Shown here: piece after piece, positions 396 to 5,912 of the stretch
How the letters are laid out: every line of letters begins with the position of its first letter
How positions within the stretch are numbered: the stretch's first letter is position 1
Program-made: the position numbers and the translations under genes
The notes under the pieces: generated by a model
Seen by the model: the letters and a program-made list of their open reading frames with translations, nothing else
Database searches by the model: none
Told to the model about the DNA's origin: nothing
NCBI GenBank assembly: GCA_013372875.1
Contig: JABXIW010000075.1
Location: forward strand, 1 to 5,912
Direction: 5' to 3'
Length of the DNA: 5,912 nt
Source: Gammaproteobacteria bacterium
Lineage (GTDB): Bacteria > Pseudomonadota > Gammaproteobacteria > Enterobacterales > Kangiellaceae

Positions 396-402
396 AACTA
401 AC
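396..402 (-). other. Cassette junction (R' core site GTTAGTT) starting the left-most cassette
   Basis: On the minus strand GCGTTAGTT marks the likely recombination point (G^TTAGTT) between an upstream cassette and the cassette ending at the left window edge. It is the exact complement of the AACTAAC box at 29-35, as required for the two ends of one cassette. The complementarity extends to 12 nt (GTTAGTTGCCAA at 29-40 against TTGGCAACTAAC at 391-402). The attC expected just upstream is not of the canonical Vibrio type. The sequence there reads GTCTAATAAGC immediately before GTTAGTT. Confidence 0.5.
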
Positions 403-411
403 GCTTATTAG

Positions 412-426
412 ACGGATTTAATCCGT
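412..426. repeat. Perfect 15-nt palindromic hairpin
   Basis: ACGGATT and AATCCGT flank a single T, giving a perfect dyad. It sits next to the cassette junction at 396-402. A near-copy, CGGATGAAATCCG (11 of 13 positions the same), lies at 1005-1017. No T-run follows on either strand, so it does not look like a terminator. Its role is unknown. Confidence 0.5.
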
Positions 427-450
427 AATTGTACCTGACCAATCATAACG

Positions 451-672
451 CTAATTATACTCACTCTCAAAATAAGCTCGGTCTGACTCTCTTTCATCGG
501 AGTCGATTTGATAGGGAAAACGCACGCCCCCTGAAATGTGTAGAGTATTTAATTTAAATGACTTTGGGGCATTAGTTAGTTCTATTGCCGAAGCGACGAG
601 ATCAGAAGCGGGTTGGAGCAGAGGTGATTTACGAAACAACCTGTTTCGCAATTGTGCAAGACCCTCTTGCAT
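451..672 (-). CDS. Doubtful 73-aa reading frame
   Basis: This open frame runs from ATG (670-672) to TAG (451-453). I recognise no family. The ATG and first codons lie inside the hairpin array, so the N-terminus (MQEGLAQLRNRLFRKSP) is mostly a translation of hairpins. No good ribosome binding site precedes the ATG. The C-terminal part (SGGVRFPYQIDSDERESDRA) has protein-like composition and might be the tail of a degraded gene. The stop codon abuts GCGTTATGA, which resembles a cassette core site and matches the start of the gajA cassette. It could be a real small cassette gene, a remnant, or chance; chance or remnant is more likely. Confidence 0.25.
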   Translation of the reverse strand: MQEGLAQLRNRLFRKSPLLQPASDLVASAIELTNAPKSFKLNTLHISGGVRFPYQIDSDERESDRAYFESEYN

Positions 673-734
673 AATTGGTTACTAGAGTTTGTCCAACAAC
701 CTGTTGGACAATTGGGAAACAGCTTGTTTCACAA
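629..734. repeat. Tandem array of four short hairpins with 3-nt loops
   Basis: There are four consecutive dyads. The first is CGAAACA-ACC-TGTTTCG (632-648). The second is TGCAAGA-CCC-TCTTGCA (655-671), extended by CAATT/AATTG arms at 649-653 and 673-677. The third is TTGTCCAACA-ACC-TGTTGGACAA (689-711). The fourth is GAAACA-GCT-TGTTTC (716-730). Stems are 6-10 bp and every loop is 3 nt. Hairpins 1, 3 and 4 share the AACA/TGTT stem top. CAATTG-like linkers separate several of them. Such regular structure is not explained by coding sequence. Possible roles are a structured RNA, a recombination or protein-binding site, or part of a small repeat element. Confidence 0.7.
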
Positions 735-1042
735 ATAAATCTCATGACGGCTTCTTGCGCTCTAAACACATCTTGGGGCAAAGAAGATTTACGAAAGACG
801 ATGCATGTACTACTGCATCAATAACTTTCACGCTGAATTAACAAAAAATCCAATTGCCGAACCTAAACTTAAGTGATGTAGATGAGCTTTGACAAAAAAT
901 GGTATATCACGGACTTTAAACTAATGGAGACGCTTCTATTGAACCTGTTTAGATGAGTGTAGACACGTAACAATGTCAAAGCTATATTCACTTATCATCG
1001 TCATCGGATGAAATCCGCGGCTCGCCATCTAAGATATATCAC
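735..1042. other. About 300 nt without a recognisable gene
   Basis: I see no convincing coding frame here. The sequence is AT-rich. GATTTACGAAA at 786-796 is an exact direct repeat of 626-636. The first copy leads into hairpin 1 of the array. The second is followed by a dyad, GATGCA (800-805) and TGCATC (814-819). A TTGACA box lies at 889-894, but no good -10 box follows at 16-18 nt. Two tiny frames (from about 925 and 974) have no support. CGGAT-GAA-ATCCG (1005-1017) is a small hairpin 25 nt before the next gene. Confidence 0.5.
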
Positions 1043-1219
1043 ATGACACAAGAAACTAAAAGAATTCACCTTTCCGACCAACAGCGTCGTGAAGCAGTTA
1101 CTCGCGTGATGAGTGGAGTTATTGTCAGTGAACATCGTGCCCACAAGATCAAGAAAGTCCGCCGTAATGTTATACAACAGATGTGCATTGCATTTACTAA
1201 GGCAGTTCACGCTGAGTAG
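1043..1219 (+). CDS. Small basic hypothetical protein (58 aa)
   Basis: An ATG-to-TAG frame of 58 codons that begins MTQETKRIHLSDQQRREAVT and ends MCIAFTKAVHAE. It is rich in Arg, Lys and His, is predicted by eye to be mostly helical, and lacks a signal peptide or membrane segment. The stretch SDQQRREAVTRVMSG resembles the first helices of helix-turn-helix domains in transposases and regulators, but the resemblance is weak. Codon use is normal for Vibrio. The ribosome binding site is poor (AAGATA about 8 nt upstream). It lies opposite to the array direction and converges on the 83-aa gene with a 56-nt gap, so the two are not an operon. The gene is probably real, with unknown function; it might bind DNA or RNA. 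Confidence 0.5.
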   Translation: MTQETKRIHLSDQQRREAVTRVMSGVIVSEHRAHKIKKVRRNVIQQMCIAFTKAVHAE

Positions 1220-1275
1220 CAACCACTAGTAATTCTTTCACAGCATTCAAAGGTGTTTTGTTTTCTAGCCAAAAG

Positions 1276-1527
1276 CTAGCGCTGTTGTTGCGTTAGCTTC
1301 CTCTCTAGAAATTGAATGAAAATGTCATCTTCTATGTAAAACAGATCATAACCAACATGCTGAATACCCTCTTGCGAGATTTCCGTGATTTGCCCTTTAC
1401 CATCGTTCTCGAGTGAAAACTCTCGTTGAAGGTTATACATCAACTGATTGAACCGAAGGTCAGTATTGTTGCTCCAAAGTTCCTTCAAAAGTGAAAGCGT
1501 AGTTTCTATTCGTTTAGGGTCACGCAT
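1276..1527 (-). CDS. Small conserved protein of the MRDPKRI type (83 aa), YihD/DUF1040-like
   Basis: The ATG start is preceded by a strong ribosome binding site (AAGGAG, 7-nt spacing), which fixes the start. The protein begins MRDPKRIETTLSLLKELW, followed by TDLRFNQLMYNL at about 23-34 and DLFYIEDDIFIQFLERKL at about 61-78. This order is a helix with an aromatic end, an NxDLRFxQL segment and an acidic DLxYxEDDxFIxFL C-terminus. It matches small uncharacterised bacterial proteins that begin MRDPxRI and broadly recalls YihD (DUF1040); both comparisons are from memory. It is soluble, acidic and has no catalytic motif I can name. A core-site-like GTTAGAC ends 16 nt upstream of the start codon, so it is probably the single gene of its own cassette. 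A CTAGC-CAAAA-GCTAG dyad overlaps its TAG stop. Confidence 0.82.
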   Translation of the reverse strand: MRDPKRIETTLSLLKELWSNNTDLRFNQLMYNLQREFSLENDGKGQITEISQEGIQHVGYDLFYIEDDIFIQFLERKLTQQQR

Positions 1528-1534
1528 TGATGTG

Positions 1535-1540
1535 CTCCTT
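1535..1540 (-). promoter_or_regulatory. Strong ribosome binding site of the 83-aa gene
   Basis: AAGGAG on the minus strand, 7 nt before the ATG at 1525-1527. It decides the start codon and is the best Shine-Dalgarno sequence in the window that has a start codon at the right distance. Confidence 0.8.
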
Positions 1541-1543
1541 GTG

Positions 1544-1550
1544 GTCTAAC
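1544..1550 (-). other. Candidate cassette start (R' core site GTTAGAC)
   Basis: GTTAGAC on the minus strand is a perfect match to the integron core consensus GTTRRRY. It lies just before the ribosome binding site of the 83-aa gene, the usual place for a cassette boundary. The upstream side reads TTTTGAC rather than the expected GGGCG, so the attC it should terminate is not canonical. If real, the gajAB cassette runs from 5857 to 1550, about 4.3 kb. Confidence 0.4.
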
Positions 1551-1668
1551 GTCAAAATACATATTTGAATTAATTTTTATGATGTTAATTATCAGCGCCA
1601 AGGGGCAACACGTCTAGCGGACATACATCTTAATTGAGGTGTTCCCTAAAGTATTACTGTTTAAAACC

Positions 1669-1790
1669 AATACCAAAATTTAACTCTAGTTTTGGTATTT
1701 CACACTTTTCTGGTCGTGTATTTGAGCTCAAATACCAAAAGTAACGTTGAATTTAGTATATATACCAAAAATATGCATAAATTTTGGTAT
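1669..1790. promoter_or_regulatory. Cluster of ATACCAAAA / TTTTGGTAT dyads, probable operator
   Basis: Five exact copies of a 9-bp half-site occur in 122 bp: ATACCAAAA at 1670-1678, 1732-1740 and 1762-1770, and TTTTGGTAT at 1690-1698 and 1782-1790. They form two perfect inverted repeats with the same 11-nt spacer and a 20-nt start-to-start distance, about two helical turns. The third pair is degenerate: 1732-1740 with ATTTAGTAT at 1751-1759 (7 of 9), 10-nt spacer. A perfect 18-nt palindrome, GTATTTGAGCTCAAATAC (1718-1735), overlaps the middle site. Regular phasing of dyads is typical of cooperative binding by a dimeric regulator. The regulator is not identified and no clear promoter could be assigned. 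The nearest gene reading away from it is the 83-aa gene, 140 nt off. Confidence 0.6.
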
Positions 1791-1868
1791 CGCATGTAGA
1801 AAATGCAGGATGCAATCTCCCTTCAACCAATTTGTATCAATTTTGTTTGTGCAGGAACCTGTTAGCAC

Positions 1869-1891
1869 CTAAAGCGTTGGAGGCGCTTTAG
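1869..1891. repeat. Hairpin with 8-bp perfect stem
   Basis: CTAAAGCG (1869-1876) pairs with CGCTTTAG (1884-1891) around the loop TTGGAGG. No T-run follows on either strand, so it is not an obvious terminator. It lies between the dyad cluster and the strong hairpin, and could be part of a structured transcript. Confidence 0.5.
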
Positions 1892-1995
1892 TCTAGAGGA
1901 CGTGCCCCATAGATAAAAAGACAATATAAACCTGATTGATTGGAACGATATCTTTACTTAGTTATTACTTGGTCTTTTCCACAAATAAGAGCAAA

Positions 1996-2040
1996 CTCAT
2001 CGCGCAAGTTGCGTCACGCAACCTGCGTGATGAGCTTTTT
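1996..2040 (+). terminator. Strong Rho-independent-type terminator hairpin
   Basis: The 19-nt arms CTCATCGCGCAAGTTGCGT (1996-2014) and ACGCAACCTGCGTGATGAG (2016-2034) pair at 17 of 19 positions around a single base. One of the two exceptions is a possible G-U pair. On the plus strand the stem is followed by CTTTTT (2035-2040), a good terminator tail. On the minus strand it is followed by a weaker T-rich stretch (TTTGCTCTTATTTG). It may therefore act in both directions and end the gajAB transcript, whose stop is 158 nt away. GAGCT/AGCTC (2032-2036 and 2041-2045) form a second small hairpin around the T-run. Confidence 0.7.
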
Positions 2041-2197
2041 AGCTCGGAGAAGGAATCAAGAAAGGTTTGCCATTAATGCACAGCACACTCTTGGACAAAT
2101 ATAAGCTAGGAATAAATCGTCGACCGAATAATTTGGATTAGTTTTATTAAGTTGAAACTTTTCGGAGGGCACCCAAAAGCCAACTATAACTCCGGAA

Positions 2198-3847
2198 TCA
2201 TCGGGTATAACCCAAGTATTCCTTTTGAGGTGTTCTTCGTTCGCTCCAACGCCCGGTGTATCCGTCAGGTCTTTGCCTCACCTCAGAGTGAGTTAACACT
2301 AGTCTTCGCTTGGCACGCGACACTCCCACAAAGAAGGCGCAGCGATTTGCGCCCTGATCACCAAAAAAAATCTCATTCTCAATTGCCATCATGATCACTG
2401 AATCGAATTCAAGGCCTTTGCTTTTGTGGATGGTTAGAATCCTGACGGCCTGGTCATCGGAAAATCGGCTTAGTGCGCCCAATAAGTCCTCTTCAATTTC
2501 CCTTAATTCATTTATACGGGCATGAGTTTCGGCTACCACTTCATTAAGCCGCACTTTCGACTCGTAATCTGGTGATAATGATGTAACAACCTCAAGACCG
2601 ACGAAAGTCAGAAAGTTTCGAACCCCCTCCCACCAAGAATAATACCTATCTCCTTCAGCATTCTCCTGAACAATTTCTCGCCTTTGTTGCCGAATGAACT
2701 GACCAAAAGATTGCTTAACACTGGATTGGGCATCTTCATCCTCGAATGGTGTCAGAAGCTTAGACAAGCTTCTCCAAGCGTCAGGGCAACGCTCCCCGTA
2801 GAGGCATTGAAGATAATCAACGATGAGTCGGGCGAATGGCTCTGTAGTGATATCTTGCATCTGCTGTTCATTGCGATAAGGGATTCCTCGAGCCTCAAAA
2901 GCGGCCATAAGTGGGGCTGCGTACAGGTCGAGTTGCTTGGAGACTAATATGGCAATTTCAGAGGTGGGCAGGCGTTCATCCCTGATCCACTGTAAGACCG
3001 TATCAGCTATCCATTCAGCTTCATTACTACAAGTGTCAAAACTCAACGAATGCATTTCGCCTTCATGACCGGCTAGTTGAGCATCTGGCATAACGGATAC
3101 GGGATCCAGAGTACGAATTATCTCGTTCTGTAGGCGAAGTAACACAGGCTGAGATCGAAAGTTTCGATACATGTTCAGTGGCCTTGCCCCAAAATCTCTG
3201 GAAAATTGCAAGAAAATTCCCTCAAGAGCTCCTGCCCACCCCATAATCTTTTGCTTCGTATCACCAACAGCAGTAAGACGAGCACCTGTTCCAAGGAATG
3301 CTACTTTGACCAACTCATACTGCAAGTTGGTACAGTCCTGAAATTCATCAAGAAACACGTCGCTATATGTCTGCCTTATTGCGTTTCTGGCAATTTCTGA
3401 ACTTTGAAGAATTTTGATTGCTAAGGGGACTAGGTCAAGAAACAAAATCTGCTGATGAGGAATTTTTGTCTCACCAATTGTATACCCAGTAGTGAGCGCA
3501 TCATCACCTGTAAGTACTACTCTGAATCTATCAATAATGCGTTTAGCAAATGCATGAAAAGTGTAGCTATCGAAACGAGAACCAAGCTCAGTGCCACAAC
3601 GCCGCTGCACTCTTTCTCTTAAATTTTTGCTAGCGTCTACCTTGAATGAAATAGCAAGAATTCGTTTAGGGTATCTTGATACACCAGTGCGCAGCAAAAA
3701 ATCAGCCCTTTGCGCTAGCATCTCTGTTTTCCCTGCTCCAGGTCCTGCTGTAAGAGCTAGTGATTGGTTCTGCTCTGTTGCAGCAATTTGAGCATTCGGT
3801 TCTAGCTGTAACCCATCAGACGGACGCCAAGAATCAATTGATATCAC
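2198..3847 (-). CDS. gajB: Gabija protein GajB, UvrD/Rep-like superfamily 1 DNA helicase
   Basis: This 549-residue protein is a compact SF1A helicase, shorter than housekeeping UvrD or Rep (about 670-720 aa). It is close to known GajB proteins (about 500 aa). Motifs appear in order: Q motif around LEPNAQ (15-20), Walker A AGPGAGKT (34-41), TFHAF (96-100), Walker B VFLDEFQD (164-171), motif III AVGDTKQKIMGW (193-204), motif IV YRNFRS (227-232), motif V LTIHKSKGLEFD (471-482) and motif VI VGVSRAKRRLVLTH (507-520, arginine finger R511). All catalytic residues are present. The start is GTG (3845-3847), which overlaps the gajA TGA by 4 nt (GTGA), so translation is probably coupled. A GAGG lies 10 nt upstream. 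In characterised Gabija systems GajB binds GajA and is thought to sense DNA ends or single-stranded DNA made during phage replication and to stimulate the nuclease. The partner gene directly upstream fits that role. Confidence 0.92.
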   Translation of the reverse strand: MISIDSWRPSDGLQLEPNAQIAATEQNQSLALTAGPGAGKTEMLAQRADFLLRTGVSRYPKRILAISFKVDASKNLRERVQRRCGTELGSRFDSYTFHAFAKRIIDRFRVVLTGDDALTTGYTIGETKIPHQQILFLDLVPLAIKILQSSEIARNAIRQTYSDVFLDEFQDCTNLQYELVKVAFLGTGARLTAVGDTKQKIMGWAGALEGIFLQFSRDFGARPLNMYRNFRSQPVLLRLQNEIIRTLDPVSVMPDAQLAGHEGEMHSLSFDTCSNEAEWIADTVLQWIRDERLPTSEIAILVSKQLDLYAAPLMAAFEARGIPYRNEQQMQDITTEPFARLIVDYLQCLYGERCPDAWRSLSKLLTPFEDEDAQSSVKQSFGQFIRQQRREIVQENAEGDRYYSWWEGVRNFLTFVGLEVVTSLSPDYESKVRLNEVVAETHARINELREIEEDLLGALSRFSDDQAVRILTIHKSKGLEFDSVIMMAIENEIFFGDQGANRCAFFVGVSRAKRRLVLTHSEVRQRPDGYTGRWSERRTPQKEYLGYTR

Positions 3848-5772
3848 TCTGGTATAGCCTCAAGACGTGTTTTGATACTGTCCGCTAAACGAACCAAGGA
3901 GTCAGGCATTCTATCGAGCAAGTCGCTATCAGAGAGTTTAGCGAAGGCTTCGATATGTGATGCGGGTTTGCTACCTAGTTTAAACAGTTGGTGATAAGTG
4001 CCAAAAAGCCTTAACTCATCGGCTGTGTATTGTTCAGAGTTGAAGTGACTTTTACCTAAAACAGCTTTAATCGTAGACTCTTCAGGTTCTTCCTCTTGCA
4101 CACCGTAGGCTTCAGGGTATGAAATTAGCATCGTAAAATCTAAGTCCATCGGAGATGAATAAAATACTCCTTTTGACTCCAACTCTTGGAAAACACTTAT
4201 GGTTCCATTGTTGAAAAAGTGGTGTGTTCTTATTGGGATCTTAGGCTCGTTCCACTTCGGTATAGGGGAGAAAACATCTGATAGTTTATTTGTATCGGAA
4301 TACTTGGCGAGTTGCTCAGAGGCGTACTTAATTCTTCCCCAGCCTGCTTGATAGCGAGCTACATCAAGGTCCAACAGAGTTAGGTACGGTATTTCCAATG
4401 CTGATAGAAGTCGCCAGAAATGGTTCACATGTCGTCCACCCAGTGGGGCTACAGTAATCGCAGACTCATCAACAGGTATACCTTTCGCTGCTAGAAGTCT
4501 AGGAAGAACAATTTCTTCGCTGTCACCTTCGCCGAGTACGACTAAGCGAGAGAAGTATATTTCTGGAAAGGCTTGTACTGCTTGCCGGACAAACTTGTGT
4601 GCCTCATCAGTTGTAGGAGGCATTTGAATATGCTTCACCTGAGTGTTACGAGCAGAGTTAAGTCGAAGGTAACGAATATCTTCAGGCTTGACACGGCGTA
4701 GCATCGAAGGTGCGTGAGTGGCTATCAGCGCTTGAGCATCGCCACCTTTCGTCATTTCTACGAGCGCATTAACTATGCGGCCAAGATAGTAAGGCGAGAG
4801 GCTGTTTTCGGGCTCTTCTAGTGCAACGATAGTAAAAACTGGTGGCTTAAGTTTTTCTACGTCAAACGCAGTATCCTCACCGCAGAGGGTGGCCTTGTTT
4901 ACTGTTTGAGATGATAACACTAAGGAGAGGTAAAGCATCGATTTTTGTCCATCGCTAAGGCGAGAGAAATCGACGAACCCCTCATCATGCCCTGGTCCGA
5001 AAGAAATCGACGTATGTCGCAACAAAGCTTCTATTTCTGATGCGACAAATGTAACCTTGGGGTCTTTAAAGAAGTTGCCTTTATGCAGTTTGTTCCACGT
5101 ATTTGTAAGACCTTGGCTTAGAGCCGCAATAGATGGATTACCAACCAAACTATCGCTTATCTCTCCTGTTAGCCTTGAGATGGTTTCTCGTTCATTATCC
5201 CACTGAATAGAGCGTAACATTCTGCCCAAAATAGCATTAGAGCCGTATGTAACGTGCTCCGCAGGATCGCGCCTAGCTGGAAGATAATGAACATGGATGT
5301 GATTGCGCTCGCCACGTGGAACTTTCGCACTACTTAGTGGTGAGCCATCTGAGTTTACTTCTAGCACATAATCAAGTGTTTCTTCGATATCACCATCAAT
5401 CCCCATCGTCGCAGTAAGGCGGTATCGTACTCGCGGAAGGCCATCAGGATCGTCTAACCTCATATGGCCAAAGTGCGGAGCTACAGTGCTGTTATCACTG
5501 CCCTTTACAAGTTCAGGAAAAATGAATTCAGATTCGATCCAAAGCGTGCGTTCTTCAGGAGTTTCTTCCTCCCCTAAAGGTACGTGAAAGTCTGGGCGCT
5601 GAATTCTACGCATGGAAGGGTTGAAACCGAACATGCGACTCAGAGCCAATAGTGCAGCTGTTTTGCCTGAACCATTTGGACCAATTAAATAGGTCATGTC
5701 ATCGAGTGTAAGAGTGGTTGGTTCTGGCCCGAATGATTGAAAATTCGATAGCCGGACAAAACTAAGTTTCAT
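3844..5772 (-). CDS. gajA: Gabija protein GajA, OLD-family ATPase/TOPRIM DNA endonuclease
   Basis: This 642-residue protein has an N-terminal ABC-type ATPase and a TOPRIM nuclease domain. ATPase motifs are Walker A GPNGSGKT (31-38), signature LSDGQKS (272-278), Walker B IVALEEPE (315-322), D-loop region NSLSP (323-327) and switch His in IATHAP (350-355). TOPRIM motifs are LGEGDSEE (413-420, E415) and DLD (468-470); the acidic metal-binding residues are intact. An OLD protein next to a UvrD-like helicase defines class 2 OLD, that is Gabija. Known GajA forms tetramers, nicks DNA and is inhibited by nucleotides, so it fires when phage replication depletes them. The start chosen is ATG 5770-5772 (MKLSFVRLSNFQSFG), which gives the usual OLD N-terminus, with GGGG 6 nt upstream. 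ATG 5782-5784 is an alternative. The longest frame starts at 5901, but its first codons lie in attC DNA, so that start is unlikely. The gene heads the operon and gajB overlaps its end. Confidence 0.92.
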   Translation of the reverse strand: MKLSFVRLSNFQSFGPEPTTLTLDDMTYLIGPNGSGKTAALLALSRMFGFNPSMRRIQRPDFHVPLGEEETPEERTLWIESEFIFPELVKGSDNSTVAPHFGHMRLDDPDGLPRVRYRLTATMGIDGDIEETLDYVLEVNSDGSPLSSAKVPRGERNHIHVHYLPARRDPAEHVTYGSNAILGRMLRSIQWDNERETISRLTGEISDSLVGNPSIAALSQGLTNTWNKLHKGNFFKDPKVTFVASEIEALLRHTSISFGPGHDEGFVDFSRLSDGQKSMLYLSLVLSSQTVNKATLCGEDTAFDVEKLKPPVFTIVALEEPENSLSPYYLGRIVNALVEMTKGGDAQALIATHAPSMLRRVKPEDIRYLRLNSARNTQVKHIQMPPTTDEAHKFVRQAVQAFPEIYFSRLVVLGEGDSEEIVLPRLLAAKGIPVDESAITVAPLGGRHVNHFWRLLSALEIPYLTLLDLDVARYQAGWGRIKYASEQLAKYSDTNKLSDVFSPIPKWNEPKIPIRTHHFFNNGTISVFQELESKGVFYSSPMDLDFTMLISYPEAYGVQEEEPEESTIKAVLGKSHFNSEQYTADELRLFGTYHQLFKLGSKPASHIEAFAKLSDSDLLDRMPDSLVRLADSIKTRLEAIPE

Positions 5773-5851
5773 AATCAGCCCCATTAAAATCTTGTATGGA
5801 TCAATTAGTAGTAAACGGCCTATCGATTTAAATAGGTCTTTCCTCCTAAAC
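5773..5851 (-). promoter_or_regulatory. Leader between the attC and gajA
   Basis: This 79-nt cassette leader is AT-rich towards gajA. It contains a perfect AGGAGG (5842-5847, minus strand), but no ATG, GTG or TTG lies 5-10 nt downstream of it, so it seems to serve no start codon. CCTAT...ATAGG (around 5819-5835) is a small dyad. TTTACT and AAGATTTTAAT could be part of a weak promoter, but no convincing -35/-10 pair is present. Whether the operon has its own promoter or depends on read-through from the array cannot be decided here. Confidence 0.3.
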
Positions 5852-5912
5852 TCATAACGCCCTGCTAAGGGGTGAGCAACGCAATACAAAAGCCGCAGCA
5901 TGCCACCTTAAT
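5852..5912 (-). other. Partial attC site, right half (L'/R' side), bounding the gajAB cassette
   Basis: On the minus strand the sequence runs from the window edge through GTTGCTCACCCCTTAGCAGG to GCGTTATGA, the classic terminus of a Vibrio cassette repeat. The CCCCTTAGCAGGG segment and the final core GTTATGA (5852-5858) are the key parts. Recombination would occur at G^TTATGA, between 5858 and 5857. The gajAB cassette therefore begins at 5857, 85 nt before the gajA start. The left half of this attC is outside the window. Confidence 0.82.

Follow-up and report, generated by a model that had tools for sequence, protein, structure and literature searches.

The anti-phage system Gabija, encoded by gajA and gajB, begins at the cut point of a Vibrio-type integron attC site in a 5,912-nucleotide stretch of DNA (positions 1-5912 of contig JABXIW010000075.1, assembly GCA_013372875.1, assigned to Kangiellaceae; the whole stretch is referred to as the window). 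Comparison with related loci suggests that this operon was probably the first gene unit behind a small repeated element, here named B, whose 3' end resembles an integron attI site, and that it was then joined to the attC by integron-type recombination.

The Gabija operon and the attC in front of it

Analysis of the two genes indicated that GajA combines an OLD-like ATPase with a TOPRIM domain and that the adjacent gene encodes the UvrD-like helicase GajB. Both proteins match their PADLOC profiles from end to end (GajA over residues 1-642 with 1045 bits against PDLC00097, GajB over residues 1-548 with 851 bits against PDLC00144), Pfam recognized the AAA, OLD-like TOPRIM, and UvrD domains, and neither reading frame contains an internal stop. 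GajA carries the motifs GPNGSGKT, LEEPE, LGEGDSEE, and LLDLDV, and GajB carries AGPGAGKT, FLDEFQD, VGDTKQ, and VGVSRAKRRL, which we take to be those expected of these proteins. The gajB gene starts with GTG and overlaps the gajA stop, while the gajA start at 5772 has an in-frame alternative ATG at 5784. The complete operon with intact motifs that the first-pass annotation had read here is thus confirmed, and judged by its sequence it is an ordinary, intact anti-phage operon. As in the known system, the genes are adjacent and overlapping with full-length profile matches; no unusual protein feature was found in the window copy, and its setting alone is notable. Relatives are numerous (of 7,997 proteins scored, 5,411 match at E ≤ 1e-100), with further close GajA relatives in Vibrio diabolicus, Vibrio sp. 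TBV020, and Shewanella gelidii, and the solved GajA chains align to GajA of the window by sequence over residues 314-472 only (E 3e-5 to 1.2e-4). An Rfam scan of the window gave no match at E ≤ 1, and a near-match search of Escherichia coli genomes and phages with the window gave none.

The attC sites were detected with two covariance models, R1, for which 18 attC sites in three arrays of Vibrio plasmids were used, and R2, a broader one, both of which represent one attC type. The models recognized the right half of an attC in front of gajA and the start of a further attC at the other end of the window, each cut by the window end (Table 1). The first-pass annotation had placed an attC terminus just before gajA; the covariance-model check for an absent site at 5852-5912 found attC there, with the cut point G5858|T5857 lying 85 nucleotides before the ATG at 5772, and the claim holds. 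Stretches 89.5-95% identical to the region 5851-5912 occur in nine further plasmid records (H5-H13). The attC and both genes share the minus-strand orientation, in agreement with the earlier statement that the genes follow the direction of the array. With R1 at E up to 1, no attC besides these two was found in the window, and R2 gave the same two. When the filters were switched off, neither end-cut attC was reported in full, a behavior of which the tool warns, and the best other window matches reached 9.2 bits (R1) and 11.2 bits (R2).

Exchange of attC and B in front of the same genes

The repeat B starts with TGCCCC, ends at GCG|TTA, and occurs in two types (queries of 291 and 233 bp). Analysis of the closest genome locus, L001 from Photobacterium alginatilyticum, whose GajA is 86-87% identical, revealed that the homology runs from window position 5860 (L001 position 9908) to 2081 and no further; its 5' limit coincides with the attC cut point of the window. 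Where the window has attC, L001 has the end of a full-length B (profile E 7.5e-19), after which TTATGAG... and gajA follow as in the window. This Gabija thus stands directly behind B in Photobacterium.

This is one of four gene starts that we observed both behind B and behind attC, with the partner changing at the same GCGTTA. The first is the start of the gajA unit itself, which is 89% identical between L001 and the window. The second, TTAGTTGCC..., lies behind B in the window and behind attC in L005, L006, L007, and L071 (82-85% identity). The third belongs to a nucleotidyltransferase gene that stands behind B, while its relative in L071 (71% identity) stands behind attC, and the fourth start, TTATGTGTTTGATG..., is found behind B and behind attC in L180 and at a true attI beside intI in L230 (90-92%). 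In all four cases, the likeness ends at GCGTTA; the exchange point is fixed only to within GCG, because these letters are common to attC and attI ends. As read from the aligned junctions, such changes of partner correspond to what integron recombination leaves.

Likeness of the B 3' end to attI

When B profiles were searched against 38 integrase loci, 11 matches were obtained at E ≤ 1. Ten of them are located on the upstream side of intI and directed away from it, which is the attI zone (placed from match coordinates and intI strands), and in seven of these ten the match extends to the profile's 3' end; the eleventh, in L084, covers only the 5' part of B and lies outside this zone. The attI end of L080, AATAATCCGTCTATAAAGCG|TTA, can be compared with the end of the window B, ATTAAATCCGTCTAATAAGCG|TTA. 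Over its last ~33 bp, B matches the attI of L079 and L080 and has the same GCG|TTA end, as in the attI of Vibrio chromosomal integrons. B differs from that attI in its conserved 5' part starting with TGCCCC, which was not found beside attI in the 38 integrase loci, and in lacking intI. B thus shares with attI the sequence likeness ending at GCG|TTA and, at the four exchanged junctions, cassettes that begin at its end, and it does not lie beside intI in the 55 stretches described below. Taken by its sequence, B looks like an orphan attI-like element, a capture site without integrase.

Distribution, surroundings, and movement of B

Matches to B at E ≤ 1e-6 were found in 80 of 329 genomes of the Vibrionaceae, the family of the L001 genome (by its organism), with 51 for the long type and 62 for the short type; many matches were partial, and at most two candidates were scored per genome. 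An IntI match at E ≤ 1e-60 was present in 44 of these 80 genomes. The surroundings were analyzed in 55 stretches with 59 placements reaching the B 3' end, with flanks of up to ~6 kb, shorter at contig ends; near-duplicates are included (L155/L156, L182/L183, and L192/L193). No convincing IntI was found in the 55 stretches (tblastn with five IntI proteins, E ≤ 1e-3), the two weak matches having 24% and 26% identity. An attC of at least 25 bits lay downstream on the same strand in 22 of the 59 placements, upstream in 6, and on the opposite strand in none; three matches below 25 bits were left out, with which the upstream count would be 7. The upstream attC sites in L153 and L154, and partly in L178, lie downstream of another B.

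Among the 57 placements that have an open reading frame (ORF) of at least 100 amino acids within 3.5 kb downstream, the first one is on the B strand in 48, and in 30 of these 48 it begins within 60 nucleotides of B. The downstream genes resemble usual cassette cargo (GNAT and others). PADLOC matched 23 families, with at most 8 proteins, for 54 first downstream genes and 49 families for 57 nearest upstream genes, with the protein L157:6361-6738 belonging to both sets. This comparison gave no sign of defence enrichment downstream of B, and B as a defence element as such was therefore rejected. Within the window B, a promoter-like pair (TTGAGA, 17 nucleotides, TATGAT) at 470-442 on the minus strand points into the following cassette; one such pair was found, against 0.4 on average in shuffles.

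A Shewanella plasmid (L013) and a Pseudoalteromonas plasmid (L014) have in common a 1,677-bp block, 97.6% identical, that begins at the TGCCCC of B and closes with TGTCCA, while the sequences outside differ. Such a shared block indicates that B moves. The block consists of the B element and an Abi-family gene (L013:828-2503 and L014:8001-9677). In an all-against-all comparison, the TGCCCC/TGTCCA motif was found at 289 of 910 block ends, a count dominated by B copies, versus 2.7% of ~20,000 random positions. In L012 (14157-14889), a TGCCCC motif lies ~140 bp ahead of the start of a gene for a 197-amino-acid tyrosine recombinase (14296-14889); relatives of this protein (E ≤ 1e-10) occur in three of the 55 B stretches (L174, L202, and L207). 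This protein may be the recombinase of the TGCCCC/TGTCCA modules, with the motifs as candidate attachment sites. A second, distant Gabija (L060:1540-8238; GajA 61% identical) follows, at a distance of ~1.4 kb, a B match without the 3' end; still further upstream, L060 has an attC and a match to the attI end.

The region behind gajB

No attC of the neighboring type was found between 5851 and 32 with R1 or R2, and gajB is thus not followed by an own attC of this type. The same holds for the region behind gajB in Photobacterium (L001 9000-15000), where the best match to the models reached 8.9 bits. The next G|TT point, 402/401, lies 1.8 kb beyond gajB, and the Gabija unit makes up 3.8 kb of the stretch between the two points. 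The motif TGTCCA at 2097-2092 is the 3' limit of the L001 homology. The dispersed sequences X, A, and B lie between gajB and the cassette starting at 401 (Table 1). X has counterparts in L061 (96.2% identity, window 2097-774) and L062 (96.7% identity, window 2097-1257), and near-full-length copies of repeat A, 95-98% identical, occur in seven genomes (G131, G190, G195, G245, G248, G280, and G296), with a partial copy adjoining B in L174. The cassette from 401 to 1 is 84-87% identical to cassettes in the three Vibrio plasmids L005, L006, and L007, where these stand behind attC.

Table 1. Features of the window, from the gajA side to the opposite end
Feature	Position	Strand	Evidence or remarks
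Right half of a Vibrio-type attC	5851-5912	minus	R1 46.1 bits, E 2.5e-9; R2 42.6 bits; cut by window end
Stretch between the two G|TT points (Gabija, X, A, B)	402-5857	minus	5,456 bp; junction letters; homology boundaries in L001, L005-L007
gajA	3844-5772	minus	642 amino acids; OLD-family ATPase and TOPRIM; PADLOC PDLC00097, Pfam, motifs
gajB	2198-3847	minus	549 amino acids; UvrD-like helicase; PADLOC PDLC00144, Pfam, motifs
Junction motif TGTCCAAGAGTGTGCTG	2080-2097	minus	End of the part common with L001 and start of X; L001 homology ends at 2081, L061/L062 homology begins at 2097
Sequence X	781-2097	minus	83-amino-acid ORF at 1276-1527 (minus); matches in L061 and L062
Repeat A	572-780	minus	~210 bp; rich in short palindromes; starts TGCCCC; copies in seven genomes
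Repeat B, internally shortened copy	402-571	minus	Starts TGCCCC, ends G402|T401; profile trained without the window: 571-463 E 6.5e-27, 470-398 E 2.6e-16
attI-like 3' end of B (...CCGTCTAATAAGCG|TTA)	398-470	minus	Resembles attI beside intI in L079/L080
Next integron cassette, from 401 downwards	1-401	minus	attC begins at 32
Start of a further attC (first 32 positions)	32-1	minus	R1 30.0 bits; R2 27.4 bits; cut by window end

A crude box scan for any attC pointed to an attC-like fold at 1752-1678 on the minus strand, which was rejected: it sits in a run of TTTTGGTAT palindromes, neither attC model exceeds 7 bits there (a 6.7-bit match at 1789-1667), and X continues across it unbroken in L061 and L062. 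The scan recovered 4 of 18 known sites and therefore proves little either way; its shuffles do not keep the TTTTGGTAT palindromes. The near-palindromic TTTTGGTAT and ATACCAAAA boxes at 1790-1670, upstream of the ORF of X, have the look of an operator array.

Origin of the present arrangement

Upon weighing these comparisons, we consider it probable that Gabija came into the array in the position of first gene after a small mobile B, an attI-like site without integrase. An integrase acting in trans would then have recombined the sites at GCG|TTA in the manner of an integron, swapping the attI-like site for the attC of a Vibrio array, and Gabija would consequently now stand behind a true attC, the transfer running from the B element to the attC array. 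On the 3' side, the unit would have kept the TGTCCA junction that it also has in Photobacterium, with X, A, and a further B beyond it, and the array would resume with a normal cassette from the attI-like end of this second B. The composite might still be excisable as a 5.5-kb circle by recombination of attC with attI. Several points weigh against this reconstruction. The flank comparison rests on one close Gabija relative, L001, and the exchange is read from the comparison of junctions. Only two of the ten attI-zone matches have E below 0.001 (4.3e-5 and 1.4e-4), the rest ranging from 0.0036 to 0.56, and among them L080 counts twice and L079 and L080 are alike. No IntI at E ≤ 1e-60 was found in 36 of the 80 genomes with B matches, and 37 of the 59 placements lack a downstream attC of the model type. 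The attI-like end of the window B may not work, because this copy is internally shortened, and because the attC models know one type, the absence of attC behind gajB holds for that type.

The first-pass annotation had read the operon as an integron cassette, and this is retained for its 5' edge, which lies exactly at the attC cut point, while the neighboring-type attC that would close a cassette is missing behind gajB. A classical Gabija cassette whose own attC decayed or was cut off by the later arrival of X, A, and B, which are dispersed and could be latecomers, appears unlikely to us: L001 agrees with the window at the 3' end as far as TGTCCA (window 2081), likewise without an attC of the model type, so the loss must predate both the window and L001. 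PMC12409362, citing others, describes defence systems in integrons as reduced in size and reports that those with more than two genes are absent; Gabija has two genes and is therefore not excluded by this statement. The chromosomal-integron defence cassettes of Getz 2025 and Darracq 2025, as described in PMC12409362 and cited in PMC12753305, resemble the window in having anti-phage genes directly behind a Vibrio attC, but they are cassettes, described as size-reduced, whereas the window unit spans 3.8 kb with two long genes and no cognate attC was found for it. PMC12753305 also names Gabija on Vibrionaceae plasmids.

It is considerably less probable that the whole 5.46 kb (5857 to 402) moves as a composite cassette, with the B end serving as attC. 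G|TT points at both ends fit such a unit, and L005 and L006 show the state expected after its loss, with attC directly before the 401 cassette, but this is also simply the ordinary state of a cassette; moreover, the B end resembles attI and is not recognized by the attC models. That unrelated pieces were joined in the contig by misassembly is very improbable, since the junctions lie at recombination points or recurrent motifs and each side is matched by independent records.

Implications for integrase-less cassette arrays

Clusters of attC sites without an integrase (CALIN) are defined by attC alone. Runs of attC cassettes can likewise begin at B elements, with no integrase in the flanks that were retrieved; the difference is that at B the run is headed by a repeated element with an attI-like site. 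In the titles and abstract beginnings of openly licensed PubMed Central articles, neither an integrase-less attI element in Vibrionaceae nor a Gabija cassette was found described, which is no proof of absence. The orphan-attI family may be new, and Gabija itself is of a known kind with many relatives.

We regard the following broader proposal as evenly balanced between right and wrong. Vibrionaceae and, by the plasmid matches, also Shewanella and Pseudoalteromonas would carry small mobile elements with attI and without integrase, which would spread capture sites to plasmids and islands; an integrase acting in trans would load cassettes there and found integrase-less arrays, and the Gabija of the window would have passed from one of these elements to an attC array. 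To our knowledge, the origin of integrase-less cassette arrays is an open question. If the proposal is true, part of the answer would be a repeated element that carries in nothing but the capture site, and such an element would also account for the position of a long operon such as Gabija behind attC.

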